This document shows, one piece after another, positions 14,073 to 35,626 of a stretch of DNA of 64,000 bases; the stretch's first letter is position 1, and each line of letters begins with the position of its first letter. Made by a program: the position numbers and the translations under genes. This DNA is from Pseudaestuariivita rosea (GTDB lineage: Bacteria; Pseudomonadota; Alphaproteobacteria; Rhodobacterales; Rhodobacteraceae). The notes under the pieces are model-generated. The model made no database searches, had not been told where the DNA came from, and saw only the letters and a list, made by a program, of their open reading frames with translations. Location: NCBI RefSeq assembly GCF_017592335.1, contig NZ_JACNMP010000002.1:209973-273972 (forward strand). The letters are read 5' to 3'.

Positions 14073-14117
14073 GCAGGCTATACCCGCTTGCTCAAACGCC
14101 CGATGCAGGATGTGACA

Positions 14118-17126: not shown

Positions 17127-17184
17127 TGATCGACACTCCTTCTTGCGCTCCATAAGAGCAGAAATGTCAGATCAAGTCGTGTGC

Positions 17185-18057: not shown

Positions 18058-18133
18058 TGGTGCCGCATGAGGGACTTGAACCCCCGACCCATCGCTTACG
18101 AAGCGATTGCTCTACCGGCTGAGCTAATGCGGC
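18058..18133 (-). tRNA. tRNA-Thr (anticodon CGT)
   Basis: On the reverse strand the sequence starts GCCGCAT and ends ATGCGGCA followed by an encoded CCA (18058-18060). Acceptor arms GCCGCAT/ATGCGGC pair fully, the D arm carries AGCTCAGCCGGTAGAGC, the anticodon stem ATCGC/GCGAT encloses TTCGTAA (anticodon CGT, reading ACG), and the T arm is GGGGGTTCAAGTCCCTC. Its 3' end faces the decayed mobile island. Confidence 0.97.
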
Positions 18134-19069: not shown

Positions 19070-19147
19070 GTTGGGGGCCTCATGTGTTGTGATCTGAGCA
19101 GGATTGCCTGGCGGCGTTCATTCCACAAAACAGCGTGCAAATCAAAA

Positions 19148-20413
19148 CTATTGTGATGTTTGTGCGCCCGGACCAAGCGCCTGGCGGGTGCGGGCCCTGC
19201 GCAATTCATGCAATGCACGCACGCCGTAAATATATCCACAGATCAGCATGATGCTGGTGACCGAAAAATGGGTAAAGGCCGGAACCTCGACCGCGCCTGT
19301 GACAGCTTTGACGAAGATGAAACTGGCGAAAAAAGCCGCCTCGGCGGTGGCGGCACGCAGTGCCCAGATCATACATAGAACCAGCCCACCCAGCAATATC
19401 CACATCTGGATACCCGCACCGATCACACCACCTTCGACCCAGGCTGCAATCAGCATGTTGTGAAAGTTGAAGCCGTTGCGTTCCTCAATCCCGAACATCG
19501 CCCAAAGATGTTCGGCCGAGTTATGCCCCTGTACCCAAAACGCCTGATATCCCACTCCGAATATCGGGTTTTCGCGAATATACTGCAGCCCGACGGCCCA
19601 GATATCGGTACGCCCGGTCAGGGTTGTGTCCTTTCCGGTTTCTTCAAGCACGAAGCCCGCGATCGTATCTTGCAGGGCGATGGCGGCGATCACACCCAGG
19701 ATCAGGATCAACCCCGTCGCTGTCAGGATCACGAACTTGGCGCCCGCCGAAAAGCGATACAGGATCAACAGAAGTGGTATCAGAACCAGCCCGGGGATGG
19801 TCAAAAGGGTCTGACCGACCGATTGTGCCCCGACCAGCAGTCTTAGTCCTAAAAGCAGGGCCAAGACCCCCACAACGCGCAGCCAGCGCGCCGCGCGGCG
19901 GTCCATCGCGACGGCCAGGGCCACGATCACAAAGGTCGACATGGCGCCACCGAATGCGTTCTTGCTGCCAAAGATCCCCAAAAGCGCGCCATCAAAACGT
20001 GTTTTGCCGATGGCGACACTCAGCAATGCCGCCAAACCGAAACCGGCAAAAACGACATACATCATACGCCGCGGTCCCAGGCGATGGGCCATCACAATAG
20101 CGATGGCGACCGTCACGCCAAGCTGCAGCGCATGGCGAAATGTCACACCTGGATAAAGGGACCAGGCCATGCTGATACCGGCATAGATCGGCAAAAGCAG
20201 CACGGCCCAGTGTGTCATCCAGGCATTATAGCTTTGGCGCGGCCACAAAAAGATCATGGCCATGCCAGACAGAAGAAAGACCAACACGGCCAGCCGACCC
20301 ACCATCGGAACCAGCAGCAGCGGGGCCAGAACACCAAAGCTTAGCAGGGTGACCGGGCAAACATCATAGATCCGTTGCGGTCTATGTTGATATGTCTGCC
20401 CAAGTGACGCCAT
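19148..20413 (-). CDS. exoQ: Exopolysaccharide polymerase, ExoQ/O-antigen-ligase-like
   Basis: Inner-membrane protein of 421 residues with about ten to eleven hydrophobic segments and the large periplasmic loop of the Wzy/WaaL (PF04932) family. The family motif appears as DTTLTGRTDIWAVGLQYIRENPIFGVGYQAF, and a HNMLIAAWVEGG histidine region follows. ExoQ polymerises succinoglycan repeat units in Sinorhizobium; the neighbouring ExoK, ExoP, ExoM, ExoA and ExoL-like genes support this rather than an O-antigen ligase role. Confidence 0.78.
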   Translation of the reverse strand: MASLGQTYQHRPQRIYDVCPVTLLSFGVLAPLLLVPMVGRLAVLVFLLSGMAMIFLWPRQSYNAWMTHWAVLLLPIYAGISMAWSLYPGVTFRHALQLGVTVAIAIVMAHRLGPRRMMYVVFAGFGLAALLSVAIGKTRFDGALLGIFGSKNAFGGAMSTFVIVALAVAMDRRAARWLRVVGVLALLLGLRLLVGAQSVGQTLLTIPGLVLIPLLLILYRFSAGAKFVILTATGLILILGVIAAIALQDTIAGFVLEETGKDTTLTGRTDIWAVGLQYIRENPIFGVGYQAFWVQGHNSAEHLWAMFGIEERNGFNFHNMLIAAWVEGGVIGAGIQMWILLGGLVLCMIWALRAATAEAAFFASFIFVKAVTGAVEVPAFTHFSVTSIMLICGYIYGVRALHELRRARTRQALGPGAQTSQ

Positions 20414-20452
20414 GGCCCATCCTGACTTTGCTTTGGTTTGCTACATCGCAGT

Positions 20453-21244
20453 TTAATCGCCCCCGCGCAATTTGCACATCACACTTTCTTCGAACTGACA
20501 TCGGTCGCTCAGACGGGTGTAGGCGATCCAGTCGATTTTCATGATCGCAGGGTGGCGCAGATCGTTGAACTGACCCATCCACTCGACCAGTGTTTCAGTA
20601 CCCCAGTGGCTGGCGAAAATCTTCTGCGGTTCAACGGGCAAGTTGTTTCCACGCGTCTGATGCACCAGAGTGCCGTTGATGTACCAGCGGATCTTGTGCG
20701 GTGTCCAAAGAATGGAATAGACGTGATAGGCCTGATCGGTCGAGGGCGATATGGGCACTTTGGTTCCGTTCTTGGGCTGACCGTTCACATAGGTGTTGAA
20801 TTCCACCATACCGGTGTCTTTGGTCAGGATCTCGACGTCAATCTCATCCCAACGCGCGCCCTGACTTGGGCCGATATAGGTAAAGAACGCAGCGTTCAGG
20901 CCCGACCCAGTGTCTGTTTGAATGCGCGCTTCATACAGGCCATATCCATACCGCTGTCTTGTGCTGATCTCGGCGCATTCATAGTCAAGTTTGCCGTTGG
21001 ACGCAGGGGCGTATTGCAGATGCAGTTTGCCATTGGCGATCTTCACGCGATCGCGGTTCCAAAGGCAGTTCTGGTATTCGCCGTTGCGCCATCCGTCCGA
21101 GATGTACCAATGGCTTTCATCAAGCGTGTTGAAGTCTTCCTTGAACGATTTGCCCAATCCATCGGCCTGAACCGACAGTGCGCCAAGCGCCAGTGAAAGA
21201 GTCGCCACGACCCACCCCCTGACATGGTTTTTCACAGTAAACAT
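20453..21244 (-). CDS. exoK: Family 16 glycoside hydrolase, ExoK-like
   Basis: Secreted endo-glycanase, 263 residues from MFTVKNHVRGW, with a signal peptide (cleavage near VQA-DGLG). The GH16 catalytic motif is DEIDVEIL, holding the nucleophile and acid/base glutamates around the aspartate, and W-rich substrate residues are present. In Sinorhizobium ExoK cuts nascent succinoglycan to give low-molecular-weight polymer. The open frame extends 13 codons upstream, but GAGGTGA just before the ATG at 21242-21244 favours the shorter form. It is 39 bp upstream of exoQ on the same strand. Confidence 0.85.
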   Translation of the reverse strand: MFTVKNHVRGWVVATLSLALGALSVQADGLGKSFKEDFNTLDESHWYISDGWRNGEYQNCLWNRDRVKIANGKLHLQYAPASNGKLDYECAEISTRQRYGYGLYEARIQTDTGSGLNAAFFTYIGPSQGARWDEIDVEILTKDTGMVEFNTYVNGQPKNGTKVPISPSTDQAYHVYSILWTPHKIRWYINGTLVHQTRGNNLPVEPQKIFASHWGTETLVEWMGQFNDLRHPAIMKIDWIAYTRLSDRCQFEESVMCKLRGGD

Positions 21245-21557
21245 AGTCACCTCATACATTGCTGGAACAACGTGCCTAAGCACATGGGTCTTATTTGGGG
21301 CGTCATCGATTCCGTCAAAAGTGACATAGGGTAAACTGTTTCATATTCGGCATAAAACTTCCGACGTGGTGCAAATTTTATGCAATCTCGCATCAATGCC
21401 ATCATCTTGCCGGTAAATAGCCGCAGAAAATTAACGTTTGATCAGCGATTGGCTGCTGCACCTGCAGTGTGGCCCTTGCATTGTTGCCTTGATCAGTGGT
21501 CATGTGCAGTGCATTTCGATATCATTTGTATTTCGCGGACGCAGGGTAAGGCAACGC
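21245..21557. other. Divergent promoter region exoK / glycosyltransferase
   Basis: A 313-bp gap between divergently transcribed genes. It must hold promoters for both sides, but I cannot pick out convincing -35/-10 pairs. No small open frame with a ribosome-binding site was seen. GGGTAAGG at 21543-21550 serves as ribosome-binding site for the gene at 21558. Confidence 0.5.
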
Positions 21558-22856
21558 ATGATCGGCGCAACCAGACAGACCGTCACCGGCCAGGTCCCGC
21601 AGGTTTCGGTGATCATGGCAAACTATAATGGTGCGTCCTTTATCGAGGCGTCGATCCAATCCGCTTTGCAGCAAACCATCCAGAATATCGAGGTGATCGT
21701 GGCCGATGATGCCTCGACCGACCGCAGTATCAGCATCGTCAAAGGGATGTCCGACAGCCGGATACGCCTTTTGCCAGCTATTCAGAACGGCGGGCCAGGC
21801 GCTGCGCGCAACAGGGCCATCAAGGCCGCGCGGGGCAAATGGCTGGCGATTGTGGATTCGGACGATCTGATGCACCCCCACCGGCTGGAACGGCTGATTG
21901 GGTATGCCGAAAAACTGGGTGTTGATGCGGTTGCCGACGATCAGATTTGCTTTTCCGACGAAACAGGTGCCGAAGAGCAGTCTTTGTTCGGTATGCTTTT
22001 GCCCGATCCGATCCGATCGATCACGCCCGCCTTGATGGCGCAAAGCAGCAGTCAGGGTCCGGCAGTGACCAGCCTTGGTTTTATGAAGCCGGTGTTGCGC
22101 TGCGACAGTTTGCAACATCAGTATCGGACCGATATCCGGATCGGCGAAGACTTCGATCTTTACATGAGATATCTGGCTGATGATGCCAGGGCCGTTTTGA
22201 TCGATGAACCGCTTTACTTCTATCGCCGCCATACCGGATCAATTTCGCACCGCTGGTCGACGGACCACATAAAAACGATGATCCGCTGTAACGATGACCT
22301 TTTGGCTGCGGATCTTGATCTAGATGCCGATGCCATACAGGCGCTGCATGCCCGCACAGCCCGGCTAATGCGCGCTTTGCGGTTTGAGGATCTGGTCCAT
22401 GCCATAAAAACGCGCAACGTGTCCGCCGCCGGGCAGCTTCTGCTGAAACATCCCGTGCTTTTCGCGAACCTGACCCGGGCCATGAAGTCCAGATTGAACC
22501 GCAGTCGGACGCTATCGACTGAAAAACCGGCGCCAAAGAAGAAACATCTGCTGGCCTTGCCGCAGGGGGATATCCCGGAATACACGCCCGTCGATCCGCA
22601 AAAAAATCGTGAGCCCTGGCCCCTGATCCAAAGTCTGGCCAATACGACCATTGATCCGGGCGGTCAGATCACTGCGATCGGCCCCAGTGGTGTTTACGCT
22701 TTGGGATACATTCTGCAGCGGCCAGACACTATCGACATCATTCCAGACGGCCCTTGGCCGGATGCTATTCGCAGGCAGATGGCGGTTGCCGGACACCATC
22801 CGCCTGATGACACCCCCACCAAAACCGAAGATACAGCAGAGCCGCTTCATGTCTGA
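21558..22856 (+). CDS. Family 2 glycosyltransferase
   Basis: Predicted cytoplasmic glycosyltransferase, 432 residues. The GT-A core is at the N-terminus: VSVIMANYNGASFIEASI, VIVADDASTDRSI, and the DxD-like IVDSDDLMHPHRL. The C-terminal ~200 residues are not recognised and are polar and alanine-rich. The frame is open 40 codons upstream, but that part does not resemble a glycosyltransferase; the ATG at 21558 has a GGGTAAGG site and gives the usual short lead-in. Its last codons overlap the next glycosyltransferase by 8 bp (ATGTCTGA). Confidence 0.82.
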   Translation: MIGATRQTVTGQVPQVSVIMANYNGASFIEASIQSALQQTIQNIEVIVADDASTDRSISIVKGMSDSRIRLLPAIQNGGPGAARNRAIKAARGKWLAIVDSDDLMHPHRLERLIGYAEKLGVDAVADDQICFSDETGAEEQSLFGMLLPDPIRSITPALMAQSSSQGPAVTSLGFMKPVLRCDSLQHQYRTDIRIGEDFDLYMRYLADDARAVLIDEPLYFYRRHTGSISHRWSTDHIKTMIRCNDDLLAADLDLDADAIQALHARTARLMRALRFEDLVHAIKTRNVSAAGQLLLKHPVLFANLTRAMKSRLNRSRTLSTEKPAPKKKHLLALPQGDIPEYTPVDPQKNREPWPLIQSLANTTIDPGGQITAIGPSGVYALGYILQRPDTIDIIPDGPWPDAIRRQMAVAGHHPPDDTPTKTEDTAEPLHV

Positions 22857-23832
22857 ACAGATCAAACCGCTGGTTCATATTCGGACCCCGACCTATAAAC
22901 GCCCCGTGGCACTGAAACGCTGCCTTCAGTCCCTGATTGACCAGACCTGGGATCACTGGGTTTGCGACGTCTACGACGATGACCCCGAACAATCCGCAGC
23001 CACGGTGGTGCAGGACCTGGGGGATGACCGCATCCGCTATACCCCGAACCAGCCACAGAAATTTGCGTCGAAAAACATCGACGGATGCTTTAGCCGCGCC
23101 AACCCGCATGGGGCGCAATATTTCTGCTCGGTCGAGGATGACAATCTGATCCTGCCGCGCTTTATCGAAGACAACATCAGGATTTGCAGGGAATATGGGG
23201 TTGAGCTGGTCTTTCGCAATCAGCTGATCGAACACGACAGCGGAACGGAAAAGGCGCGGTTCAGCGATCAGGGCATTCTGGAAGAAAAATTTCGCGAAGG
23301 TGTTTATGACCCCGATCTGTTTCGCCTTTCCATCCTGGCCGATATCGGCGTGTCGAACGGCGGCATGTTCTGGTCTGACAACGCAAAGACCGATCTGGAA
23401 ATCGGTGTGAACTGTACGGCCACCTTGCAGGAATACATGCGCACCTATGCGATCTGTGAACCGATTTATGTCGCGCTTGAACCCTTGGCCGTCTGGGCTG
23501 AAAACGGCGAACAGACGACACGCGATCTGGGCAATGCGGCCTCCTACCTGCGGCGGGAACTGGATCTAAAACGGGCGATCCAGAAACTGCAACGCAAGGC
23601 GTGGCAGCGGGGGGGCAAACCCGATCCACAGCATTTTATCAGCACCGATGAGTTTGCCTTTGATCCCAGTTTGCGCGCCACAGGTTTGGTCAAGGGGCTG
23701 ATTTCTTTTAAAACGGGTCCCGCCCTGGGCCTGCGGCGCAAGCTTGAACTGATCGCGCGAGGGCTGTTGATACAGGTCGTCGGGCGCACCGAACCGGATC
23801 TGGACCGGTTTATCCTGCAAAGGGGTGACTAG
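22849..23832 (+). CDS. Family 2 glycosyltransferase
   Basis: 327 residues starting MSEQIKPLVHIRTPTYKRPVALKRCLQSLIDQ, a GT-A fold opening, with DVYDDDPEQ and the metal-site region FCSVEDDNLILPRFIEDN. No membrane segments. Translationally coupled to the preceding glycosyltransferase by an 8-bp overlap. Its stop overlaps that of the convergent nucleotidyltransferase gene by 4 bp. Role in the exopolysaccharide pathway is inferred from position. Confidence 0.82.
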   Translation: MSEQIKPLVHIRTPTYKRPVALKRCLQSLIDQTWDHWVCDVYDDDPEQSAATVVQDLGDDRIRYTPNQPQKFASKNIDGCFSRANPHGAQYFCSVEDDNLILPRFIEDNIRICREYGVELVFRNQLIEHDSGTEKARFSDQGILEEKFREGVYDPDLFRLSILADIGVSNGGMFWSDNAKTDLEIGVNCTATLQEYMRTYAICEPIYVALEPLAVWAENGEQTTRDLGNAASYLRRELDLKRAIQKLQRKAWQRGGKPDPQHFISTDEFAFDPSLRATGLVKGLISFKTGPALGLRRKLELIARGLLIQVVGRTEPDLDRFILQRGD

Positions 23833-25004
23833 GCCGTCTTGGCCTGAGCGGCCGCGCGTCTGGCCTCGATCAAGCCGGCGGTTTTCAGACAAAGGGCCGA
23901 TGCGGCGGCCCATCCGGCCTCAGATGTGTATCTGACGGGCGATTTGCCGCAAAGCCGCCACAGCACTTCGCGCCGCCTGGGCCAGCCGGTTTTGACGACC
24001 CAGGGCGTTTGCACCATGGACAACATTTGACCTGTATCAATTTCTGGCAGTGGGTCAGGCAGATCAAGCCCCCGGATCGGATCGAAAACACTGCGGCGCA
24101 TCTGATCGGCAAAGGCCAATACAGGCAGCAATCCCTGGTGGTCTGCTGCCTGCATCAATCGTGTCGCCTGGCTGGGGGTCTGTGCGACCAGTGCAGCGTG
24201 CAGGTCGCAAATATTGCCGACGCAGGGTTCGTGATTGAAAAAGGCCTTTACCACACCAATTGCCGTCAAAAGCGTCAGATAGGTCATCGACAAAACCGGT
24301 ATCGGCCCTTCCGGCTGCTTTGCCATTACGGTATTCGCCAGAAACTCATTCAAATGCAGGGGCGCTGGGGATCCGGCCTGCTGCACACGGTGATGGATAT
24401 CAACGACGGTGAGCTGATCCTCATGTGTCAGGTGTCTTTCGCCCAGAAAGGTGTCTGTCCAATGATTGATCGGGGTGTCGGGGGATTTAAAGCCCGCGTC
24501 AGTCAACAGCCGAATGGATCGACCATAATCCTGTGACGCCACCAGAAGATCAACGTCACCCGATGGTTTCTGATAGGCGGTTCCGTAAAGCGCCAACTGC
24601 TGCATGGGACCTTTCAGAAAAACATGCGGCACAGCGGCCGCTCGCATAAGGTGCGAAATGCCATGGCTGTGGCGCAGGCTGCGGTTGTTCATGGTGACAG
24701 TTCGGAAACGATAAAGCGCCACATCATCAGTGATGTCTGACACATTTATGCCATGTTTGCGCAGCGTATCATCAACCAGCAGAGTAGTCTTATTCAACCG
24801 GCTGATTTCATAAAGCGATTTTGGATCGATTCCATCAATACTAAGACAAGTGTTCGACACAACCGTGAAAAAGCGTCGCATGATCACGCGATGAATTGCG
24901 CTTTCTGCCGCTATTTGCCTGCTTTCAATATTCGCAATCGTATTTTTGTTGAAAACCAAACCACTTACTCCGATGCGCGGCTTTTGACGCGCAGGTACAG
25001 CCAT
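23829..25004 (-). CDS. PF14907-type nucleotidyltransferase family protein of the lasso cluster
   Basis: 391-residue protein with the uncharacterised nucleotidyltransferase signature HVFLKGPMQQLALYG and KPSGDVDLLV (catalytic aspartates D150 and D152). The rest is helical and rich in alanine. Genes of this family accompany lasso peptide clusters that also encode an HPr-kinase-like kinase, as in the paeninodin cluster, where the role is unclear. It is divergent from the precursor gene with 274 bp between. No clear ribosome-binding site precedes the ATG at 25004; an internal ATG at 24881 (MRRFFTVVSNT) is an alternative start. Confidence 0.78.
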   Translation of the reverse strand: MAVPARQKPRIGVSGLVFNKNTIANIESRQIAAESAIHRVIMRRFFTVVSNTCLSIDGIDPKSLYEISRLNKTTLLVDDTLRKHGINVSDITDDVALYRFRTVTMNNRSLRHSHGISHLMRAAAVPHVFLKGPMQQLALYGTAYQKPSGDVDLLVASQDYGRSIRLLTDAGFKSPDTPINHWTDTFLGERHLTHEDQLTVVDIHHRVQQAGSPAPLHLNEFLANTVMAKQPEGPIPVLSMTYLTLLTAIGVVKAFFNHEPCVGNICDLHAALVAQTPSQATRLMQAADHQGLLPVLAFADQMRRSVFDPIRGLDLPDPLPEIDTGQMLSMVQTPWVVKTGWPRRREVLWRLCGKSPVRYTSEAGWAAASALCLKTAGLIEARRAAAQAKTA

Positions 25005-25191
25005 TCTGCGCGAATCTCCGCCTGAATGTGATGTATCAGATTTGAAATGTGCGGAAATGGAAAATTTGAATGATTAAAAAATATGCAAATAAGGCAAAAT
25101 AAGGCAATTTTACGCTGATATCGCCGTAATTAATCTGCCGCAGATTAGTTTTCCACAGACATTTTTTGGGAAACAATCATGAATCGTTGAC

Positions 25192-25247
25192 TTTGACGCA
25201 AGGGAAGCCAATCCGTTAAAGGCGCGTCAAAGAAATGACGTGCGTCA
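25192..25247 (+). promoter_or_regulatory. Four TGACG/CGTCA half-sites upstream of the lasso precursor
   Basis: TTTGACGC (25192-25199) is mirrored by GCGTCAAA (25224-25231), a perfect 8-bp inverted repeat, and a second pair TGACG (25236-25240)/CGTCA (25243-25247) follows immediately. All four share the core GACG or its complement. They end 31 bp before the precursor ATG, so they overlap the likely promoter or 5' leader. An operator for a dimeric regulator, or an RNA hairpin, are both possible; no regulator gene lies in the cluster. Confidence 0.5.
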
Positions 25248-25278
25248 CTAAATGTTTTAACGTGTAAGGAGTTTAAAC

Positions 25279-25434
25279 ATGGTGCAAATGAAAGCTGATA
25301 AGCGCGACTACGAAGCGCCGAAGCTTGTCGCACATGGGTCGATCGAAAAGATCACCCACGGTGGGTCTCACGGTGGTGTCACCGACGCCAACTTCACCCG
25401 TGGGACACCGATCGACGATATTACTTTTTCATAA
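25279..25434 (+). CDS. Lasso peptide precursor (A gene)
   Basis: 51-residue RiPP precursor with an AAGGAG ribosome-binding site (25266-25271) 7 bp before the ATG. The leader (1-27) has the B1-recognition motif Y11-E-A-P14-K-L16 and G20-S-I, and ends T26-H27, giving the conserved threonine at the penultimate leader position. The predicted core is residues 28-51, 24 residues: it opens GGSHGGVTD, so Gly1 and Asp9 can form a 9-membered macrolactam ring; the tail is ANFTRGTPIDDITFS with Phe12 and Arg14 as possible plugs. It ends in Ser, the site phosphorylated in paeninodin. The ring and tail assignments are inferred from the family; the sequence features are seen directly. Confidence 0.92.
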   Translation: MVQMKADKRDYEAPKLVAHGSIEKITHGGSHGGVTDANFTRGTPIDDITFS

Positions 25435-25473
25435 AGTGATTTAGTCGGACGTATAGATCCACATATTAAAACA

Positions 25474-25501
25474 GCGGGGCGCGGTGCCGTCCGCGCCCCG
25501 C
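25474..25501 (+). promoter_or_regulatory. GC-rich hairpin between precursor and processing genes
   Basis: GCGGGGCGCGG (25474-25484), loop TGCCGT, CCGCGCCCCGC (25491-25501): a perfect 11-bp stem 40 bp after the precursor stop and 26 bp before B1. No T-run follows, so it looks like a partial terminator or an mRNA-stabilising 3' end that gives more precursor than enzyme mRNA. Similar hairpins occur after the A gene in other proteobacterial lasso clusters. Confidence 0.8.
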
Positions 25502-25527
25502 GGTCTGTATAGAGTCAAGGTGTTCTT

Positions 25528-25806
25528 ATGGATATTGATACAAAGACTTTTTATAAAATTTCTTCGTCGGCGATGGGGTGCGAGCTACAGGATGGCTGGG
25601 CCATTCTGGATATGAATACAAACCAGTATTTCAGCTTGAACCCCGTCGGTCGCACGGTTTGGCAGACCCTCACCGATGGCGCTGACTTTGACCAGATCTG
25701 CAAGGCGGTTCAGGATGACTTTAACGTCGACGCCGATACCTGCCGCAACGACATCAAACAGCTGCTGGATGACCTGGAACGTCAAAAGCTGATCGAGGTC
25801 CGGTAG
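25528..25806 (+). CDS. Lasso peptide B1 protein (PqqD-like leader-binding RRE)
   Basis: 92-residue PqqD-type RiPP recognition element. It reads FYKISSSAMGCELQDGWAILDMNTNQYFSLNPVGRTVWQTLTDG, the beta-rich winged-helix core that binds the precursor leader, then a helical tail (DDLERQKLIEVR). In lasso biosynthesis the B1 protein delivers the leader, through its YxxP motif, to the B2 peptidase. It is the first enzyme gene after the precursor and hairpin; AAGGTG precedes its ATG, and B2 starts after one base. Confidence 0.92.
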   Translation: MDIDTKTFYKISSSAMGCELQDGWAILDMNTNQYFSLNPVGRTVWQTLTDGADFDQICKAVQDDFNVDADTCRNDIKQLLDDLERQKLIEVR

Positions 25807-25807
25807 G

Positions 25808-26230
25808 ATGGACCGGCGCGTGAAAGCCGGTTGGTACAAGGTGAAACAACTGTCCGAGTGTTTTTTCACCCTGCTTTGGGTGCGCGCGCTTTTGTTCACC
25901 GGCCGCTTCGAACGGGTTCGGTCCCACATTGCGCGGCACGAAACCAACGGCCCGCCCGAGCTTTGGCAGCAGCGTATGGTCGCCTGGGGTATTCCGAAAA
26001 TGGCGCGCTTTGTACCCGGTGCGACCTGTCTGACCCAGGCCATGGCAGGTCAATACATGCTGGCGCGCCGCGGTTGCGAGACCATCTTGAGATTGTCCAT
26101 TGATGGCACTCAGGGGGATGACTTGCGCCCGCATGCCTGGCTGATGTCAGGCCACGTGATCGTGCTGGGCGGTAAGTCCGATATGTACCATGCACATCGT
26201 CAATTGATCGATTTCAAGGTGCGGGGATGA
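25808..26230 (+). CDS. Lasso peptide B2 protein (transglutaminase-like leader peptidase)
   Basis: 140-residue PF13471 cysteine peptidase that removes the leader. The catalytic cysteine is C74 in PGATCLTQAMAGQYML and the histidine is H109 in DDLRPHAWLMSGHVIVLGG; the usual acidic third residue is not obvious, D125 being a candidate. N-terminal residues 1-45 are helical with LLWVRALLF. Its TGA overlaps the cyclase start (ATGA). Split B1 and B2 genes are usual for this clade. Confidence 0.92.
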   Translation: MDRRVKAGWYKVKQLSECFFTLLWVRALLFTGRFERVRSHIARHETNGPPELWQQRMVAWGIPKMARFVPGATCLTQAMAGQYMLARRGCETILRLSIDGTQGDDLRPHAWLMSGHVIVLGGKSDMYHAHRQLIDFKVRG

Positions 26231-28089
26231 GCGGCTTTCTGGCCATATACAACCCGAAGGGTGCCCCTGTCGCTGCGCCCAGGCTGACCGAACTTGCCGC
26301 CGGATTGGACCATCGCGCTGTCGATGGCCGTAATATGACAATCGATGGGCCGGTGGGGTTGGCGCATTTATGGTTCAACACGACCGATCAGACGGGGCCG
26401 GGGCCTTATGAGCTTGGCGATCCACATCTGCTGCTGACGCTGGACGCGCGACTGGATGATCCTTTTGATCTGGCGCGAAAGCTGGGCGTCACGACCGCCG
26501 ATGACGCAACCCTGATCCTGCTGTCCTATCGCAAGTGGGGGGCTGACTGTGTGCATCACCTGCGCGGCGATTTTGCCTTTGTGATATGGGATAAATCCGC
26601 CCAACAGCTTTTTTGCGCCCGTGATCCGTTCGGGGTCAAACCGTTTTTCTACACTTCTCAGGATGACCAATTCATAGCGGCCAGTGAACCCGGCCCGATC
26701 CTGTCTGCCATGGGGGGCCTGCACCCCGATCAAAACTTCATCGCTGATTTTCTGGTGGGCCATCTAAGCGATGATGCTCGGACAGGCTTTGCCGATGTGA
26801 CCCGCCTGCCGCCTGCACATACGCTTACTGTAACAAAGGGCTGCGCAAAGCTGTCGCGCTATTGGGCGCTTCGGCAAACCGAACTTCAGATCGATGACGC
26901 CTCCGAACAATTGCGTCAGCTGTTGGATCAGTCGGTGAAACGACGGATGAAGGGGCGCGACGTTGGCGCCATGCTCAGCGGCGGGCTGGATTCGTCATCA
27001 ATCGCATGCCTTGCGCAGCGGTATCGCTCGGATCTGCCCGTATTTTCGTTGATCTTCAACGATCCCGATCTGGACGAACGCCCGTATATCCAGCAAACGC
27101 TCGATCAATATGCGGTCCGGCCGCATATGGTCCAGCCAGGGCAGGGTGGGGCCTTTGCCGGGGGGGGGCGTCTTTTGGGCGAACAGGCTTATCCCTTTCT
27201 GGCGCCGGGGCATGTGACCTCACGCCCGATCTACGCTGCTGCGCGCCGGTCTGGTGTTCGGGTCTTGCTGGACGGCCACGGCGGGGATGAGGTCATCGGC
27301 CACGGCTTCGAACGCCTGTCTGAGCTGGCCCGCGCCGGACATTGGCGAAAGCTGTGGGTTGAGGCCGCAGGCACCGCCGGGCTCGATGGTCTCAGCCCCT
27401 GGGCCGTCTTTTCAAGCGCCCTGATGACGCACACCCCGTTGTCGCGCGTCAGCGGATGGACCAGCCGTTTCCGCAGAACCACCGCCGCTGTTCCCGCCTG
27501 GCGTCGCCTGTTGCGGCAGGATTTCACCCATGACAATGGCATCATCGACCGCCTGCAAGCCCGGCAAAAGGCCATCGGGTCCACGCCCTTTGACCGCTAT
27601 CGCGCCACCCTGCAGGACCCGCTGATCCCCCACGCGTTTGAGGTACTGAACACCTGCGCCGCGACCCACGGCGTTGAAACGCGGTTCCCTTTCTTTGATC
27701 TGGACCTGGTGGAATTCTGCGCCAGCCTGCCAGCTTCGGACCGGTTGAACAACGGCTGGACCCGGTGGGTGTTGCGTCAGGCGATGACAGATATCCTGCC
27801 CCAAGCCGTGCAATGGCGCCGGTCCAAGACGGATTTTACGGCCCATATGCTGCGTCAGATGCTGGATCAGGATGGCGATATCCTGCGCGATATCGTGTTT
27901 TCTGACTGCACGCTGTTTAACTATGTCGAGGCCACGGCGCTGCGTCAGACCTATGACCGCGTGACCCGGAACCGCCACAAGGCGGACCGCAACGACATCT
28001 TCGGTCTGTGGCGCGCCACCTGGGTCGGGCTATGGTTGCGGCAGCTTGAAAGCCAAGCCGCAACGCCCAAACGACAGGTGCCCGCATGA
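26227..28089 (+). CDS. Lasso peptide macrolactam cyclase (C protein, asparagine-synthetase-like)
   Basis: 620-residue AsnB homologue that adenylates the Asp side chain and joins it to the core N-terminus. The N-terminal glutaminase-like domain starts MSGFLAIYN, lacking the catalytic Cys2, so it cannot release ammonia, as expected for a lasso cyclase. The ATP-pyrophosphatase loop is SGGLDSS at 251-257, with LLDGHGGDEVIGHGF further on and the R-rich QWRRSKTDFTAHMLRQ near the C-terminus. Coupled by ATGA overlaps to B2 upstream and the kinase gene downstream. Confidence 0.93.
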   Translation: MSGFLAIYNPKGAPVAAPRLTELAAGLDHRAVDGRNMTIDGPVGLAHLWFNTTDQTGPGPYELGDPHLLLTLDARLDDPFDLARKLGVTTADDATLILLSYRKWGADCVHHLRGDFAFVIWDKSAQQLFCARDPFGVKPFFYTSQDDQFIAASEPGPILSAMGGLHPDQNFIADFLVGHLSDDARTGFADVTRLPPAHTLTVTKGCAKLSRYWALRQTELQIDDASEQLRQLLDQSVKRRMKGRDVGAMLSGGLDSSSIACLAQRYRSDLPVFSLIFNDPDLDERPYIQQTLDQYAVRPHMVQPGQGGAFAGGGRLLGEQAYPFLAPGHVTSRPIYAAARRSGVRVLLDGHGGDEVIGHGFERLSELARAGHWRKLWVEAAGTAGLDGLSPWAVFSSALMTHTPLSRVSGWTSRFRRTTAAVPAWRRLLRQDFTHDNGIIDRLQARQKAIGSTPFDRYRATLQDPLIPHAFEVLNTCAATHGVETRFPFFDLDLVEFCASLPASDRLNNGWTRWVLRQAMTDILPQAVQWRRSKTDFTAHMLRQMLDQDGDILRDIVFSDCTLFNYVEATALRQTYDRVTRNRHKADRNDIFGLWRATWVGLWLRQLESQAATPKRQVPA

Positions 28090-29000
28090 CCCGGATCTAT
28101 CGCGCCTTTGGTTTGACCCTATCGTCCGACATCTTTCTGCCCGAACTCGTCCCGTCGCCCCAAGGCGCCATCGACCTGACCATTCGCCGCGGACCCGTCG
28201 CGGCAGATCACCTGACGGGTCAAAATTTTGCACAGGATTTTGGGGACGATCACGCGGTGCTTTACTGGAAAACCGTCGGGGCCTTCCATATCGATGCCCA
28301 AGGCAATATCACCGTCGATGCCTTTCCTAACCTGTCCGACGATCTGATCGCCTTTCCGCTTTTGGGCCCTGTGATGGCCATCGCGCTGCAATACCGCGGG
28401 GCCTTCGTGCTGCATGCCGGAGCTGTTTCTATCAATGATCAGGCCGTCGTCTTTATGGGGGACAAGATGGCGGGCAAATCGACAACCACAGCGGCCTTTG
28501 TCCGTGCCGGTCACAAGATGCTGTCCGACGATCTGGCGCCGATCCGGTTCGACACCGCAGGCCAGCCCGTGATCGCGCCCGCCTTTGCGCAGGTCAAACT
28601 TTCGGACGACGCGCGCCAAGCCATCGCCTTGTCAGATGCTGTCGCACGACCGGACGTGCACGAGGTGATCGAGAAAAAGCGCCAGCTGCTGTCGTCGGCC
28701 TTTGAAAACCGCACAATGCCGCTGGCCGCGCTTTATGTGCTGGAACGCGGAACCCAGGCCCAGATCACAACGCTTCAGGGCCAGAATGCCCTGGCCATGC
28801 TGCTGCGCTTTGCCTATGCGCCGCGGTTCGGCACAGATTTCTTGTCGGGCCCGGTTGCAAAGCGTCATTTTGAAATGGCCGCCAGTCTGGCGCGGCAAGT
28901 GCCGGTTTGCATCCTGCAGGTCCCGACAGGTCTGGATAAACTGCACCAGGTGGTCGATCTGTTACAGACGCGGGTACCGAAACGGGGGCAGGTGGCATGA
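28086..29000 (+). CDS. HPr-kinase-like kinase of the lasso cluster
   Basis: 304 residues with the HPr kinase P-loop fold: VLHAGAVSI (H110), Walker A GDKMAGKST at 125-133, and LSDDLAPI (D148-D149) as metal and base residues. In the paeninodin cluster a homologous kinase phosphorylates the C-terminal serine of the precursor. The precursor here also ends in Ser, so the same reaction is predicted. Some homologues may act on other substrates. Overlaps the cyclase stop and exporter start by ATGA. Confidence 0.85.
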   Translation: MTRIYRAFGLTLSSDIFLPELVPSPQGAIDLTIRRGPVAADHLTGQNFAQDFGDDHAVLYWKTVGAFHIDAQGNITVDAFPNLSDDLIAFPLLGPVMAIALQYRGAFVLHAGAVSINDQAVVFMGDKMAGKSTTTAAFVRAGHKMLSDDLAPIRFDTAGQPVIAPAFAQVKLSDDARQAIALSDAVARPDVHEVIEKKRQLLSSAFENRTMPLAALYVLERGTQAQITTLQGQNALAMLLRFAYAPRFGTDFLSGPVAKRHFEMAASLARQVPVCILQVPTGLDKLHQVVDLLQTRVPKRGQVA

Positions 29001-30748
29001 CTGGCACAACCGGTCAGATCATATCCTTTTCCCGCTACGTCCGGCAGGGGGGCGGGCGCCGCTGGTGGATCGCGCTGACCCTATTGTGCCTGGGCCAGCT
29101 GACCGAAGGTATATCGCTTTTGCTGCTTCTGCCGATCGTCGGCATGACCGTGGGTCAGGCGCTGGTGCTGGATCTGGGGCAGTTTCAGATCGCGGGTTGG
29201 ACGCTGCCGGATGTTCAGATCAGTCTGGCGGTTTTGCTGATGTGCCTTGTCGGGCTGATCACGCTGCAGGCCTTATTCAATCGCTATAAATCGGTCTACC
29301 TTGGCACGCTGATAGCCGATTTTTCCAATCGTGTCCAAAGTGACCTGTTCCGCCGCATTGGCGACAGCGACTGGAACGCCTTCGTGCGGCTGCGCGCATC
29401 AGATCTGGATCATGCCATGACGGATCAGGTGCAGCGGGTTCAGGCCGCCGGTTTTGCCTTGCTCAGCATTCTGCAAACCATCGTGATGCTGGTGATCTAT
29501 GCGGGCATCTGCCTGATCGTATCGGTCCCGATGACGCTGTTTTCGCTTGGGTTCGGCATTCTGGCCTTTGTCCTGCTGTATCCCTTTCGCCGTCAGGCCA
29601 CTCTGTTCGGCCAACAGATCATCGCCAATCGCAAGGCGCAGTATCGCACCGTGGCCGAGTTGCTGGGCGCCTTGAAGCTGGCCAAATCGATGAACCTGGA
29701 ACAGCAGTACTACGATCAGATGGATCAGGTGTTGCACAAGGGGCGCGGCGACGGCGTGCGTTATATCCGCCGCAGCACTTTGGGCACCGCGCTTTTGCAG
29801 ATCGCGACGGCAGCCTGTGCGGCCGGGTTTGTCTATGTCGCGCTGGCCGTGCTGCAGGTGCCTTTCGCGGAACTTGTTGTGCTGATCCTGGTTCTTTTAC
29901 GCGTCGCGCCGCGCTTTCTGAACCTGCAAATGCAGGCGCAACAGGTGCTGACGAACATCGGCGCCTTTACCGCGCTGCAACAGTTGAAATCCGACCTGAA
30001 GCCAACCGCGACACGCCCCGATCCTGATCTGCCAGCCGTGCCGCGCCCGCAGGAAAGCATCGCGTTGCGTGATATCACCTTCGGGTATGACGACCGGCCG
30101 ACGCTTGCCGATATAACACTGACCCTGCCGGTCGGGTCAATCACATCGCTGATCGGGCCTTCGGGTGCGGGCAAAAGCACGGCCGCGGATATCTTCATGG
30201 GGCTTTTGCGCCCCACAACGGGCCATCTGGCGCTGGACGACACGCCCCTGACCGACGCGCATATCAAAAGCTGGCGCGATCAGATCGCCTATGTCCCGCA
30301 AGACACATTTTTGTTCAACGACACAGTGCGGTTCAATGTCGCCCTGGGCCGCCCGCACGCGACGGACGCTGAAATATGGCACGCGCTTGACCGCGCGCAG
30401 GCCAGGGGATTCGTGCAAGACCTGCCAAAGGGGCTTGATACCGAAATCGGTGACCGCGGTGCCCTGCTGTCAGGGGGGGAACGGCAGCGGCTTGCCCTGG
30501 CGCGGGCGCTTTTGCGCAACCCGGCGTTCCTGATTTTGGACGAAGCCACCAGCGCGCTCGACCCGCAAAATCAGATGATCATTGGCGCCACGATCAAGGC
30601 ATTGCGCGGCGAAACAACCGTGCTGATCATCGCACATCAGATTTCGCTGGCACGCATCGCTGACCAGATGTTTGTGCTGGAAGACGGCGTGGTCCGCCGC
30701 GTTGAAAAACCCGAAGATGGGTCCGGATTAAGGAGTGTAAATCTATGA
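28997..30748 (+). CDS. Lasso peptide ABC exporter (D protein)
   Basis: 583-residue half-transporter with a six-helix membrane domain (about 1-310) and a C-terminal ATPase: Walker A GPSGAGKST at 387-395, signature LSGGERQRLALARAL at 491-505, Walker B AFLILDEATSALD, switch histidine in IIAHQISLAR. There is no N-terminal C39 peptidase domain, consistent with leader removal by B2. Last gene of the lasso operon; it would export, and give immunity to, the mature peptide. Its stop is 6 bases inside the end of the convergent small membrane-protein gene (overlap 30743-30748). Confidence 0.92.
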   Translation: MTGTTGQIISFSRYVRQGGGRRWWIALTLLCLGQLTEGISLLLLLPIVGMTVGQALVLDLGQFQIAGWTLPDVQISLAVLLMCLVGLITLQALFNRYKSVYLGTLIADFSNRVQSDLFRRIGDSDWNAFVRLRASDLDHAMTDQVQRVQAAGFALLSILQTIVMLVIYAGICLIVSVPMTLFSLGFGILAFVLLYPFRRQATLFGQQIIANRKAQYRTVAELLGALKLAKSMNLEQQYYDQMDQVLHKGRGDGVRYIRRSTLGTALLQIATAACAAGFVYVALAVLQVPFAELVVLILVLLRVAPRFLNLQMQAQQVLTNIGAFTALQQLKSDLKPTATRPDPDLPAVPRPQESIALRDITFGYDDRPTLADITLTLPVGSITSLIGPSGAGKSTAADIFMGLLRPTTGHLALDDTPLTDAHIKSWRDQIAYVPQDTFLFNDTVRFNVALGRPHATDAEIWHALDRAQARGFVQDLPKGLDTEIGDRGALLSGGERQRLALARALLRNPAFLILDEATSALDPQNQMIIGATIKALRGETTVLIIAHQISLARIADQMFVLEDGVVRRVEKPEDGSGLRSVNL

Positions 30749-31000
30749 AACTTTAGTATTTTCCGAATTTCTGGCCGGGCCGGGAACCATTGTCGAAGGT
30801 CTGCGTTTTGGTTTTGCTTCGACCGACGTGCCGAACATCGACCACAGGATAATCAAGGCTAGATATCCAAACTGAAGGGCGACCAAAGTAATCAGGACCC
30901 GCGCCGTGACCACACCGACCGTGGCACCCGAGGATATGGACCATGCGCCAACGGCAATCACGCTGATAGCGAGTAAAAGCAAAAACGCCGTGATCCGCAT
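30743..31000 (-). CDS. Small membrane protein, possibly ExoX/SyrA-like exopolysaccharide repressor
   Basis: 85 residues from MRITAFLLLLAISVIAVGAW, with two membrane segments (about 2-18 and 27-52) and a basic cytoplasmic tail. This size and topology, and the VALQFGYLALIILW second helix, resemble the exopolysaccharide production repressor family (ExoX, SyrA), small proteins that inhibit ExoY at the membrane. It sits between the lasso exporter and the ExoP-like gene. The frame is open 12 codons further up, but GGAGGAG and GGAGAA lie just before 31000. The family call is tentative. Confidence 0.5.
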   Translation of the reverse strand: MRITAFLLLLAISVIAVGAWSISSGATVGVVTARVLITLVALQFGYLALIILWSMFGTSVEAKPKRRPSTMVPGPARNSENTKVS

Positions 31001-31220
31001 TTCTCCGTACTCCTCCCTGGTCTCATTATGTGTCATATGGCCCTCGGTTTTTTGTTATACCATCTGCGCCACGACTGAGATGTCGTCGACGTTATGCAAC
31101 ATTCTGCCATCAGGCAAGGACATTGCCATGGTCAGACCTTGACTTTTCTGGGTCATTTGTTGGGCAGCTGTGATAATTTTAGCCGTTCAGACCAGTATTT
31201 CAGCAGATGATTAAAGCTTG

Positions 31221-33551
31221 CTAGGCTTTATGATAGTTCGCGTAGGTCGAAATATAGGCCTCGCCCGTATCTGAGGACACATAGCTTGGCAGCTGCTCCA
31301 TATCGACTTTGTTCAACACCACGCCCAGGCTTTTCTGCCGAATCTTCGGATTCAGCCGCAACTGCTGACGCAAAACGGCGCGCGGGGTCTGCCCCCAGGC
31401 GGCCACCAGCAGGAATTTATGCACAAAGGGCTCAATGACTTTCGCGTCCACCACAGGGCTTAGCGGGGGCAGATCGATGATCACATAGCTGTATTTCTTC
31501 TGCGCGTCTGTCAGCAGTGTCGTCATCCGTTTCGACGTCAGCAATTCGGTATAATGAGACAGCCGTTCATTGGTGAAACAGGGTATGATATGCAGTTTTT
31601 CAACGTCATGGCCCAGTGTCACCTGATCGACCGTGGCATCACCGATCAGATAGCTTAGCAGCCCCTTTTCGGACGGAATTTTCAGCCCGCGCGTCAGGCC
31701 GGGGTTGCGGATATCACCGTCAATCAACAACGTCTTGTGCCCCGACATCGCCAGCAGCAGCGCCAGGTTTGATGATACCGTCGATTTACCCTCGCCCGGC
31801 AGGGCCGAGGTCACGCCAAGCACCTTGCAACCACTGGTGTCATCACCCGACACCCCAAGCGCAAAGCGGATATTGCGCAGCGTTTCGGCAAAGGCCGACC
31901 GGGGTTCTTCCAGCACACGCGATGCCATTTTGAAGGTCAGGGACGGCGGTGGAGCCTTTTTCAGGCTACGTCGCCGAAACATCTGCTTCAGCCCATCGAA
32001 ACGGCCACGTTTTTGTGCGGGCAGGGGAAGATAGCCCAAAAAGTTCTGCTCGACCTCATCCTCAATCTCGTCGCCGGTGCGGAAAAACCGTTCACGGAAT
32101 TCGCGCATAGCCACAATGCCCAACCCCAGCAAAAGGCCCAGAACAAGGCTGCTCATCAAAACGCTGGACTTGCGTGGCGCGGCCACATCGCGCGGCGGCA
32201 CGGCATCGGCTAGAATGCGGGCATTGATGCGGGGTGCGTTTTTCTGTTGCAGAAGGGCCTCATAGCGACTGCGCAGGTTTTCATAGCTGACCGACTGGGC
32301 CTCGGCATTCTTTTCCATGTTGATCAGTTCGACCTGCGCCTGCGACGCGGCATTCGTCTGGGACGTCGCCTGATCCACACTGTTGCGAATGGCATCGACG
32401 CGGGCCTGTTCGATGGCGGCCTGCGCGCTGACCTCATTGAAAATCCGGGCCAGTTCCTGGCGCAGTACATCAGACATTTCAGCCTGTTGTCGGGTCAATA
32501 TCTGCGCCTGTGGATGATCTGCCCCGAACTGTTCGATAACATCGTCCAAACGGTTTGAGATATTCAGATACCGTTCTTCCAACTCGGCTAGACGATTATC
32601 ATCAGTGGTGTTGACCACAGCGCGGGGGTCGATCACGCCTTCATTCGCCTGTTCAATTAGGTTTTCATAACGGTTGGCCAGGGCCATGGCGCGCGCGGCA
32701 TCGGCCTCGGCCAGGTTCAGCTGTGTATTCAACTGATCCAGACGCTGTTCGCTGACCAACTGCCCCTGTGTGGCAGTCAGGTTGTTAGCTGATCGAAATC
32801 GTTCCACAGCCAGCGCGGCCTGTTGCGAACTGACCGCCAGTTCCGCCAATTGATCCTGCATCCAGCTGATGGTGCGCTCGGTTGCTTCCAGGTTGGCGTT
32901 CAACTGATCATCCAGATAGGCCTGCGCAAAGGCGTTAGCGACATTGGCCGCCAGATTGGGGTCGTGCGACACATATCCGACGCTTAGAACATAACTCTGC
33001 CCAACCCGCCCGATGCGGATCGATTTGCGCAGATGTTGCGTGATCTTGTCGCTGACAAAGGCCTGTCTTTGAGCGTCGGAAAACTCGATCACAGGGCCCG
33101 AGGACGCCCGATCGGGGATCATCGCCCCAATCATCGACCGCAATCCGCCAATCGTTGATCCGATCGCTGAACTGGGCGGGTTCAGAAAAACCTGATCTTC
33201 ATAAAGCGCCAGATCCGCAACGACCTGCCGCGCAATCGGGGCCGAGCGCATGATATGAATTTCGTTCTGAATGCCGGCATCATCGCGGATATCACCATCG
33301 CTGACGGCGGCCTGCTGGATGACCTCGTTCAGGCGATTGTTCACCAGAACCTGCGCTTCGGCGTAGTAAATCGGGGGGGTTGTCGCGATATAGAAAATAC
33401 CCGCAAAGATACCCAGAATTGCGCAAAGTCCGATGACCTTTTTTTGCCGTTTAAGCCGGATCAGCAGGCGTTCAAAACTGATCGGCTCGGCCGCATCGCC
33501 GGGCTGGATCACGTTCGCACTTTCATTAAAGCGAAGGCCAATGCGGGTCAT
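31221..33551 (-). CDS. exoP: ExoP/Wzc-like polysaccharide co-polymerase and tyrosine kinase
   Basis: 776-residue inner-membrane protein that sets chain length and drives export of the polysaccharide. A Wzz domain follows the first membrane segment (about 37-57), then a long coiled-coil periplasmic region (about 200-420), a second membrane segment near 470-490, and a cytoplasmic BY-kinase with Walker A LPGEGKST, Walker A' LLIDGDIRNPGL and Walker B YVIIDLPPL. The tail SDTGEAYISTYANYHKA is a short tyrosine cluster for autophosphorylation. Head of the exoP-M-A-L-like gene group, or last in transcription order after them. Confidence 0.85.
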   Translation of the reverse strand: MTRIGLRFNESANVIQPGDAAEPISFERLLIRLKRQKKVIGLCAILGIFAGIFYIATTPPIYYAEAQVLVNNRLNEVIQQAAVSDGDIRDDAGIQNEIHIMRSAPIARQVVADLALYEDQVFLNPPSSAIGSTIGGLRSMIGAMIPDRASSGPVIEFSDAQRQAFVSDKITQHLRKSIRIGRVGQSYVLSVGYVSHDPNLAANVANAFAQAYLDDQLNANLEATERTISWMQDQLAELAVSSQQAALAVERFRSANNLTATQGQLVSEQRLDQLNTQLNLAEADAARAMALANRYENLIEQANEGVIDPRAVVNTTDDNRLAELEERYLNISNRLDDVIEQFGADHPQAQILTRQQAEMSDVLRQELARIFNEVSAQAAIEQARVDAIRNSVDQATSQTNAASQAQVELINMEKNAEAQSVSYENLRSRYEALLQQKNAPRINARILADAVPPRDVAAPRKSSVLMSSLVLGLLLGLGIVAMREFRERFFRTGDEIEDEVEQNFLGYLPLPAQKRGRFDGLKQMFRRRSLKKAPPPSLTFKMASRVLEEPRSAFAETLRNIRFALGVSGDDTSGCKVLGVTSALPGEGKSTVSSNLALLLAMSGHKTLLIDGDIRNPGLTRGLKIPSEKGLLSYLIGDATVDQVTLGHDVEKLHIIPCFTNERLSHYTELLTSKRMTTLLTDAQKKYSYVIIDLPPLSPVVDAKVIEPFVHKFLLVAAWGQTPRAVLRQQLRLNPKIRQKSLGVVLNKVDMEQLPSYVSSDTGEAYISTYANYHKA

Positions 33552-33712
33552 CTGTTCGGTCCACTCATCCTTGGCATGGGCAGATATGCCACTCTGGGTG
33601 CTATAGGTACAATTTTACATAGCAAAGGGGCAGAGGCCCCCCAACTTCAACGGGCATATCGCCGGATTTCCGCGCAGGTCTTGCGCATTTGCACAATTAT
33701 TATGCGTCATCA

Positions 33713-34630
33713 TCAATTCGCAGTCGTATCACTTAGCCCATAGGGCACAACGGTCTTCCCACCCAGCATCGCGCCTAGAACGCCAATATGCAACATCCCT
33801 CTGAGATACCACGCATTTTTCCGATGCGCGATGGGGTACATCAGCAACGCCCCAGCCATGCAAAAGCCCGCCTTGGCGACAGACAGAGCCATCGCCTTGA
33901 TCCGTCCGGACAGTGGTCGGTCCATGTAATAGACTGCCGCCTGCGTTTGCCCCATCCGTCTGCGCCGTTCAGCCAGCCAGGACAATTGCGCACGATGTTC
34001 GGGCACGACCTCGGTCACCAGCGCTTGCGCCGCATAGGCAAACGCCACACCGCGATCAAAAAGCGTGCTGAAGAAATCGGTGTCTTCACCACCGGTGCGG
34101 CCCTTGTTCAGATCAAACCTCAGCCCGTCAAAGGCAGCTTGGCCGCGATCCAGCAGCACGTTGCAGGTATAACCGGTTTTGATCTGGCCTTTGACCCAGA
34201 CAGGGCGCGTGTTATGGAATGCCCCCCGCTTCATCCAGCCCGGCGCACTGTCCAGATAAGTGGCATCGACCGGGCCCAGCACGACCCCTGCGCCCGTGTC
34301 GCGATGGGTCTGCACCAGATGCACCAGCCAATCGCGCGTCACGACCTCGTCATCATCGATGAACGCCATCAGCGGCGCGTCGCTTTGGTCCAGTGCACCA
34401 TTCCGCGCGATCGAGATATTACCAGCGGGCCGATGCAGATACACCACCGCAAAGGGCGCCGTTTCGGCATAGCTCTGTACCGCAGCTTTTGCCGTCGGTT
34501 CCGTATCATTATCCACGACGATCACGCGGACCTCATGCCCCTCGGGCACCTGCAAGGCATTCAGACTGGCCAGAGCATCCACCATATGCGGGCGGCGAAA
34601 GGTGCACATGCAGATATCGATCAGGGTCAT
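33713..34630 (-). CDS. exoM: Family 2 glycosyltransferase, ExoM-like
   Basis: 305 residues. GT2 motifs: DICMCTFRRPHMVDALASL, VIVVDNDTEPTA and LMAFIDDDEVVTRDWL (DxD), with GGEDTDFFSTLFDRG for acceptor binding. A hydrophobic C-terminal region (about 245-290) probably associates with the membrane. In succinoglycan synthesis ExoM adds the fourth sugar, a beta-1,4-glucose. Overlaps the upstream ExoA-like gene by 4 bp. The exact sugar step is inferred from family and neighbours. Confidence 0.75.
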   Translation of the reverse strand: MTLIDICMCTFRRPHMVDALASLNALQVPEGHEVRVIVVDNDTEPTAKAAVQSYAETAPFAVVYLHRPAGNISIARNGALDQSDAPLMAFIDDDEVVTRDWLVHLVQTHRDTGAGVVLGPVDATYLDSAPGWMKRGAFHNTRPVWVKGQIKTGYTCNVLLDRGQAAFDGLRFDLNKGRTGGEDTDFFSTLFDRGVAFAYAAQALVTEVVPEHRAQLSWLAERRRRMGQTQAAVYYMDRPLSGRIKAMALSVAKAGFCMAGALLMYPIAHRKNAWYLRGMLHIGVLGAMLGGKTVVPYGLSDTTAN

Positions 34631-35619
34631 TGCGCGCCCACCGTCTGCACAGGGTCACAACCCGTCGCCGTTTGCAGCAACCGCCACCAGAAGCCCGCCG
34701 ACCAGGCCGCATGCATCACCGCCGCCGACACACCCGTCAGGATCAGCGCCGCCGATACATGTTGCACCGCAATGTAAACCCCGCCCAAAAGGCACGCCAC
34801 CAGCCAGATCAGGGCGGGCAGGGCGGCTAGCATAGTGATCGGCGTCAACACCATCAGCAAAAGGCACGGCACCACCATCACCACGATCAACTGCCGGGCC
34901 TGGGGCTTCATGCGATGTTTCAACATCGTCCGTGCCCGTCCCTTGCCATAGTTGAAATACTGCCGCGCCAGGGCATCCATGCTTTTGCGCGGAAAATAGG
35001 TGACGAATGTCTTGTTCGTCAGCCAGATCTGATGCCCCGCCTGAACCAGACGCCAGTCCAGCTCGGCGTCCTCGTTATGGCTGAAACGTTCATCATACCC
35101 GCCCACCTGGCGAAACGCGGCGATCTGCATCAGCGCGTGATGACCATGAACCACATAGTCCCCCGTCGGACACGCACGATGCTTTGACCCGCCGGTCCCC
35201 AGGGGCGAATTTTGCACCGCGGCGTTGGCCCCCTGAACCAGGCCCGCGCCTTCGGCGACCATGCCAACAACGACACTGGCCGCACCCGTTGCCTTGGCCT
35301 CTTCCAGCAAAATGGCGCAGTAATCTTCGGGATAGGCGCTATGGGCATCGATGCGGATCAGCACATCATGATCAGCGCCAAACCGGTCCACGGCCAGATT
35401 GATGCCCGCACTTTGAATGCGCTTGGGGTTGTCCAACAGGATGATCTGTTCATGCTGTTCGGCCATCCCCGCCACAACATCCCGCGTGCCATCGGTGCTG
35501 CCGCCGTCGGCCACGACAATCTGCCCGCCGTTTTGCGTAACAAAGGGCAAAAGCTGCTGCAAAAGCGGCTTGATATGCGCGATTTCGTTCAGACAGGGAA
35601 TAACGATCAACGCGCGCAT
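34627..35619 (-). CDS. exoA: Family 2 glycosyltransferase, ExoA-like
   Basis: 330 residues. GT2 core: ALIVIPCLNEIAHIKPLL, IVVADGGSTDGTRDVV, LIRIDAHSAYPEDY, and the acceptor motif DERFSHNEDAELDWRLVQAGH. Two to three membrane segments lie at the C-terminus (about 240-315), as in ExoA, the beta-1,3-glucosyltransferase for the third sugar of succinoglycan. It is 7 bp downstream of the ExoL-like gene. Confidence 0.78.
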   Translation of the reverse strand: MRALIVIPCLNEIAHIKPLLQQLLPFVTQNGGQIVVADGGSTDGTRDVVAGMAEQHEQIILLDNPKRIQSAGINLAVDRFGADHDVLIRIDAHSAYPEDYCAILLEEAKATGAASVVVGMVAEGAGLVQGANAAVQNSPLGTGGSKHRACPTGDYVVHGHHALMQIAAFRQVGGYDERFSHNEDAELDWRLVQAGHQIWLTNKTFVTYFPRKSMDALARQYFNYGKGRARTMLKHRMKPQARQLIVVMVVPCLLLMVLTPITMLAALPALIWLVACLLGGVYIAVQHVSAALILTGVSAAVMHAAWSAGFWWRLLQTATGCDPVQTVGAQ

Positions 35620-35626
35620 CGGGTTT

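Follow-up and report, generated by a model that had tools for sequence, protein, structure and literature searches.

What is a lasso peptide gene doing inside a locus for exopolysaccharide synthesis? The window analysed here – a stretch of 64,000 nucleotides from Pseudaestuariivita rosea – contains a short open reading frame, gene A, that a first-pass annotation described as the precursor gene of a class II lasso peptide with a Gly1–Asp9 ring. Judged by its sequence and conservation, gene A is a genuine lasso peptide precursor gene, and its family, though new, is of a known kind. New here, and more telling than the precursor itself, is the seven-gene cassette at a fixed exopolysaccharide site to which gene A belongs (Table 1); the kinase, the nucleotidyltransferase, and the exopolysaccharide setting were all overlooked by the first-pass annotation. 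The occurrence of this cassette where roseobacter-type bacteria encode a slime polysaccharide hints that phosphorylated lasso peptides have a role in the polysaccharide coat of the cell.

Table 1. The lasso cassette and the surrounding exopolysaccharide locus (coordinates are those of the window)
Feature	Coordinates	Strand	Remarks
Wzy-like polymerase / O-antigen ligase, host locus	19151..20413	-	
GH16 endoglycanase, host locus	20456..21283	-	DEIDVE motif
GT2 glycosyltransferase, host locus	21438..22856	+	Pfam
GT2 glycosyltransferase (GT2b), cassette left edge	22651..23832	+	stop overlaps N stop
N, NTP_transf_5 nucleotidyltransferase-like protein	23829..25004	-	divergent from A; model pLDDT 91
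A, lasso precursor	25279..25434	+	leader 1-27, core 28-51 (GGSHGGVTDANFTRGTPIDDITFS); isopeptide Gly28-Asp36 and Ser51 phosphorylation presumed
GC-rich 11-bp hairpin, A/B1 gap	25473..25500	+	no U-run on plus strand; z = -3.4
B1, PqqD-like leader-binding (RRE) protein	25528..25806	+	Pfam PqqD 66 bits, cut-off 23.4
B2, transglutaminase-like leader peptidase	25808..26230	+	NF033537 54.2 bits, cut-off 33
C, asparagine-synthetase-like macrolactam cyclase	26227..28089	+	SGGLDSS ATP loop; start overlaps B2 stop
K, HPrK-like kinase	28086..29000	+	H110, K131, D148, D149; model pLDDT 95.7; fold of PEPCK/HprK
D, ABC exporter, permease fused to ATPase	28997..30748	+	Pfam/NCBIfam profiles
Small membrane protein, host locus, cassette right edge	30743..31036	-	present at G221 empty site too
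Wzc/ExoP-like chain-length tyrosine autokinase, host locus	31221..33551	-	
GT2 and GT4 glycosyltransferases, host locus	34630..36793	-	

The precursor gene and its homologues

The reading frame, its coordinates, and every residue numbered in the first-pass annotation (Y11, P14, L16, T26, G28, and D36) are exactly as claimed. Gene A starts with ATG, has an AAGGAG box 7–8 nt 5′ of the start, and encodes a class II precursor of 51 residues, with leader MVQMKADKRDYEAPKLVAHGSIEKITH followed by core GGSHGGVTDANFTRGTPIDDITFS (GGSHGGVTD-ANFTRGTPIDDITFS). The leader has the Y11-P14-L16 motif and a penultimate Thr26, and a check against leader models gave a match to NCBIfam lasso_leader_L3 above its curated cut-off (25.3 bits, cut-off 19). 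Within the window, gene A is the one open reading frame that matches a strict version of the leader/ring motif, and 60 Markov-1 random windows contain no match; relaxing the motif gives about one chance match in each random window, so that the motif alone would not prove gene A.

Stronger evidence is the conservation among ten homologues, which are 40–52% identical to the gene A precursor, with one at 32%. Other genera of the same bacterial family contribute seven of them, an alphaproteobacterial MAG (L009) one, and named plasmids (of Paracoccus sp. MC1862 and Sulfitobacter indolifex DSM 14862) two; a class-wide precursor search gave no additional full-length members. In the resulting alignment of 11 rows, Y11, P14, L16, G20, E23, T26, G32, D36, and S51 are invariant, and G28, G42, T43, P44, T49, and F50 are kept in ten, the G28 position being Thr in the S. 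indolifex precursor. The leader motif is thus retained in the homologues, and because D36 is the sole invariant acid of the core (D46 and D47 vary) the alignment supports a nine-residue ring. Together with homology and the complete B1-B2-C-D set, these patterns support both the predicted Gly1–Asp9 ring and the assignment of the Cys-free core to class II. A chance or decayed origin of the gene A reading frame, which its shortness and the loose motif might suggest, is vanishingly improbable given ten homologues with the same operon and a strict motif found in no random window.

Other parts of the first-pass description fared unevenly. Phe12 and Arg14 of the core had both been proposed to hold the threaded tail; since Phe12 is aromatic in 10/11 rows and Arg14 is unconserved, Phe12 (or Phe23) is the likelier plug candidate. 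The C-terminal Ser51, named in the title of that annotation and given no role, is the invariant residue on which the kinase discussed below bears. The suggestion that such genes are missed by gene callers applies to the Sulfitobacter homologue, which has no feature in the gene table, but not to the Paracoccus homologue, annotated as a hypothetical protein.

Three precursors or candidates from elsewhere differ in their cores. The Sulfitobacter homologue, missing from the gene table of plasmid pDSM14862_d (L177, 9054–9191), would have a core beginning with Thr (TTKSGTTLD...VTLS), a rare first core residue, and is neighboured by sulfotransferase, sugar transferase, and Wzz genes. An orphan precursor (L110 in G051:C4, 6885–7172, plus strand) has the same leader and a CDYTFS end, but its Gly-rich core (GRGHGGFGGGWGWGGGRPHRPHDPCDYTFS) lacks an acid at positions 7–9; RiPP genes are absent nearby, the main cluster lies 65 kb off, and the same kinase may use the orphan as a linear substrate. 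On a plasmid of Thalassobaculum sp. OXR-137 (L178, 12980–13204), a candidate precursor with a W-x-x-P-x-L leader, a 14-residue acid-free core, and a Ser end adjoins kinase and cyclase genes.

Biosynthetic and tailoring genes

The operon is intact in the order A-B1-B2-C-K-D, with B2, C, K, and D joined by ATGA overlaps and N transcribed divergently from A. B1 scores under the cut-off of the NCBIfam lasso PqqD families, and the Cys and His of the B2 motif GATCLTQA...PHAWL are invariant in eight sequences. The gap between A and B1 holds a hairpin of at least 9 bp, unrelated in sequence each time, in every homologue inspected, and this is probably an mRNA stability or attenuation element; it is not called a terminator of the A operon because it is terminator-like on the minus strand only. 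A promoter scan of the N/A gap gave nothing exceeding chance.

The model of K matches PEPCK and HprK, and the K sequence scores 21 against Pfam HPr_kinase_C, below the cut-off of 33.3. H110, K131, D148, and D149 of K are invariant across 50 lasso-cluster kinases; this His-Lys-Asp-Asp quartet is reported to be indispensable for lasso kinases acting on a C-terminal Ser (PMC9266682), as in paeninodin and pseudomycoidin. Because the cluster encodes such an HPrK-like kinase, the invariant Ser51 gains a likely meaning. In a kinase tree the kinases of the precursor-family loci form one clade (100/99), to which neither the Bacillus and Paenibacillus enzymes nor the remaining kinases of this bacterial family belong. 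Cyanobacterial kinase-bearing lasso clusters (L010, L013, L018, L019, L025, and L041) have candidate precursors mostly without a Ser end (e.g. ...GVLIPN, ...NRGR), and their kinase may act at another site or on another peptide.

In N, residues K131-G132, D150-x-D152, H204, and D267 are invariant in 34 sequences, and the model is nucleotidyltransferase-like, with weak matches to MenT1, LnuA, ANT(2''), and FKRP. The last of these, a ribitol-phosphate transferase of nucleotidyltransferase fold that acts on glycans, is matched with a TM of about 0.25, behind other nucleotidyltransferases. A sequence search of the PDB gave no relative of N, and the N-like proteins compared from beyond its own family, PsmN not among them, are only 13–19% identical to it.

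The cassette and its exopolysaccharide locus

Genes for Wzy, GH16, three GT2, GT4, and Wzc proteins flank the cluster, and the left edge of the cassette is placed at GT2b because its stop codon overlaps that of N. A congeneric genome (G221) has the same locus genes in the same order, at 51–85% identity and cassette-free: it has none of N, A, B1, B2, C, K, and D, and GT2b sits immediately next to the small membrane gene. Since N is missing together with A–D, N travels with the lasso genes, and the seven genes form one present-or-absent cassette whose position within the exo-type exopolysaccharide locus is fixed. Positions 13159–18133 of the window contain an RHS-repeat fragment, look-alikes (by eye) of an IS21-type transposase and its helper, and, just ahead of the exopolysaccharide locus, a tRNA gene (18061–18133, minus strand), an arrangement reminiscent of a genomic island.

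A survey of 394 genomes from 393 genera of this bacterial family gave eight with the precursor, 19 with the GH16 marker of the locus, and seven with both (Fisher p = 1.4e-9, phylogeny ignored). The exception (G048) has the precursor without GH16, a Wzc gene about 1 kb off, and a very divergent nucleotidyltransferase nearby, and in the fetched GH16 loci that lack the lasso genes, K, C, and B2 are all missing and the site is free of N. Precursor-family loci lie among polysaccharide genes in 11/11 cases, compared with 1/11 for other HPrK-like-kinase loci of the same bacterial family (p = 3e-5), and a 42-kb Paracoccus plasmid carries the polysaccharide locus and cassette together, with rep and par genes. 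Because the genomes share ancestry these p-values are too strong, and the empty site and the differing replicons are the sturdier evidence of linkage.

Two broader patterns were considered and set aside. Apparent stop codons in the GH16 genes of three genomes with the lasso genes were rejected as a pattern of loss, because the catalytic parts that could be aligned are undamaged and the one stop seen precedes the conserved domain. Nor was there support for a general rule that kinase-bearing lasso clusters lie in polysaccharide loci, the other loci of the same bacterial family mostly not doing so; few cyanobacterial kinase-bearing lasso loci showed polysaccharide genes in a profile search. An archaeal plasmid, pHALXA01 of Halopiger xanaduensis (L179), has lasso B1-B2-C genes together with a nucleotidyltransferase gene and a stretch resembling HPrK at 31% identity, with flippase, sulfatase, and glycosyltransferase genes as neighbours.

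Proposed pathway and relation to known systems

We think it probable that the locus carries a kinase- and nucleotidyltransferase-tailored class II lasso cassette whose exported peptide acts with the exopolysaccharide. B1 would bind the Y-x-x-P-x-L leader, K would phosphorylate the Ser51 side chain on the linear precursor, B2 would cleave after His27, and C would close Gly28 onto Asp36; N would then attach a sugar or nucleotide to the phosphorylated Ser, in the manner of PsmN from the pseudomycoidin pathway, and D would export the peptide to act with the exopolysaccharide that the neighbouring genes produce. By analogy with characterised relatives, phosphorylation of Ser51 followed by an N-dependent modification is the likeliest maturation route. 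The sequences themselves establish the genes and their catalytic residues, the conservation, the cassette, and its linkage; we infer the cyclisation of the core from the same characterised relatives, and the action of the peptide with polysaccharide from the linkage alone.

The patchy distribution (8/394 genomes), plasmid carriage, and empty site within the genus would also fit an ordinary antibacterial or signalling lasso peptide, whose cassette hitch-hikes in a recombination-prone locus and whose phosphorylation gives self-protection or serves as an export tag; the exporter of the pathway is moreover of generic ABC type only. This is rather unlikely, however, because the same association is seen in separate kinase clades and in Bacilli (PMC13381572), on plasmids as well as chromosomes, and each time within a set of polysaccharide genes, not next to arbitrary ones, with only one of the 11 other HPrK-like-kinase loci of the same bacterial family in such a setting. 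Quite improbable, in our view, is a covalent role, in which N couples the lasso peptide via phospho-Ser to the polysaccharide or a lipid-linked precursor, giving a peptide-decorated polysaccharide – a fate so far unknown for any lasso peptide. The strict C-terminal Ser together with the kinase and N, the gain and loss of N alongside the lasso genes, and the weak resemblance of its predicted fold to FKRP are consistent with such a link, as is the addition of hexose to phospho-Ser by PsmN, shown by heterologous expression only and with its true chemistry unsettled (PMC9266682). Against it, FKRP is outranked by other nucleotidyltransferases, no conjugate is known, and an ABC exporter suggests export of a free peptide.

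For phosphorylated lasso peptides the natural role is stated to be unknown, a link to biofilm polysaccharide being only speculation, from Bacilli (PMC13381572). An alphaproteobacterial family with a separate kinase clade and the same polysaccharide link makes the question of role directly testable, aided by the empty site of the sister species and by the plasmid copies in Paracoccus sp. MC1862 and Sulfitobacter indolifex DSM 14862.

Astexin-like proteobacterial clusters have a fused B, a lasso isopeptidase, and a TonB receptor, whereas B is split here and neither isopeptidase nor receptor is found among the Pfam-scanned genes at 18260–36793 of the window. Succinoglycan-type exo loci, which carry ExoK GH16, ExoQ, and ExoP, share the GH16, Wzy, Wzc, and GT2 set that surrounds the cassette, and we know of no RiPP genes in them; no earlier report of a lasso/polysaccharide link in Proteobacteria was found among open-licence papers. 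The linear polyphosphorylated peptides (LPPs) of Bacillota share the RRE, HPrK kinase, NTP transferase, MsbA-like exporter, and polysaccharide loci (PMC13381572), but have a signal-peptidase-like protease and no cyclase; with a cyclase and B2 present, the cassette does not belong with the LPPs. The pseudomycoidin cluster (PsmK, PsmN) shares with the cassette a kinase, a nucleotidyltransferase-like protein (whose acids are intact in N), and a C-terminal Ser, but is from Bacillus and has another core, and N is divergent from A here.

Another close parallel is with paeninodin-type clusters (PadeA/PadeK, ThcoK, SyanK), in which the core is likewise of class II, B is split into B1 and B2, the HPrK-like kinase has the His-Lys-Asp-Asp residues, and the precursor ends in Ser. 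The present cassette differs in its own kinase clade, its core signature (G-D ring, GTP, TFS), its order A-B1-B2-C-K-D, and its exo-type polysaccharide locus in Alphaproteobacteria; because its kinase falls outside the Paenibacillus/Bacillus clade, it is paeninodin-like in mechanism and not in clade. Paeninodin-type and linear phosphorylated peptides of Bacilli share a kinase and an NTP transferase and are often found in capsular polysaccharide loci (PMC13381572, 2026), and with the separate kinase clade described here the polysaccharide link is therefore present in at least two branches.
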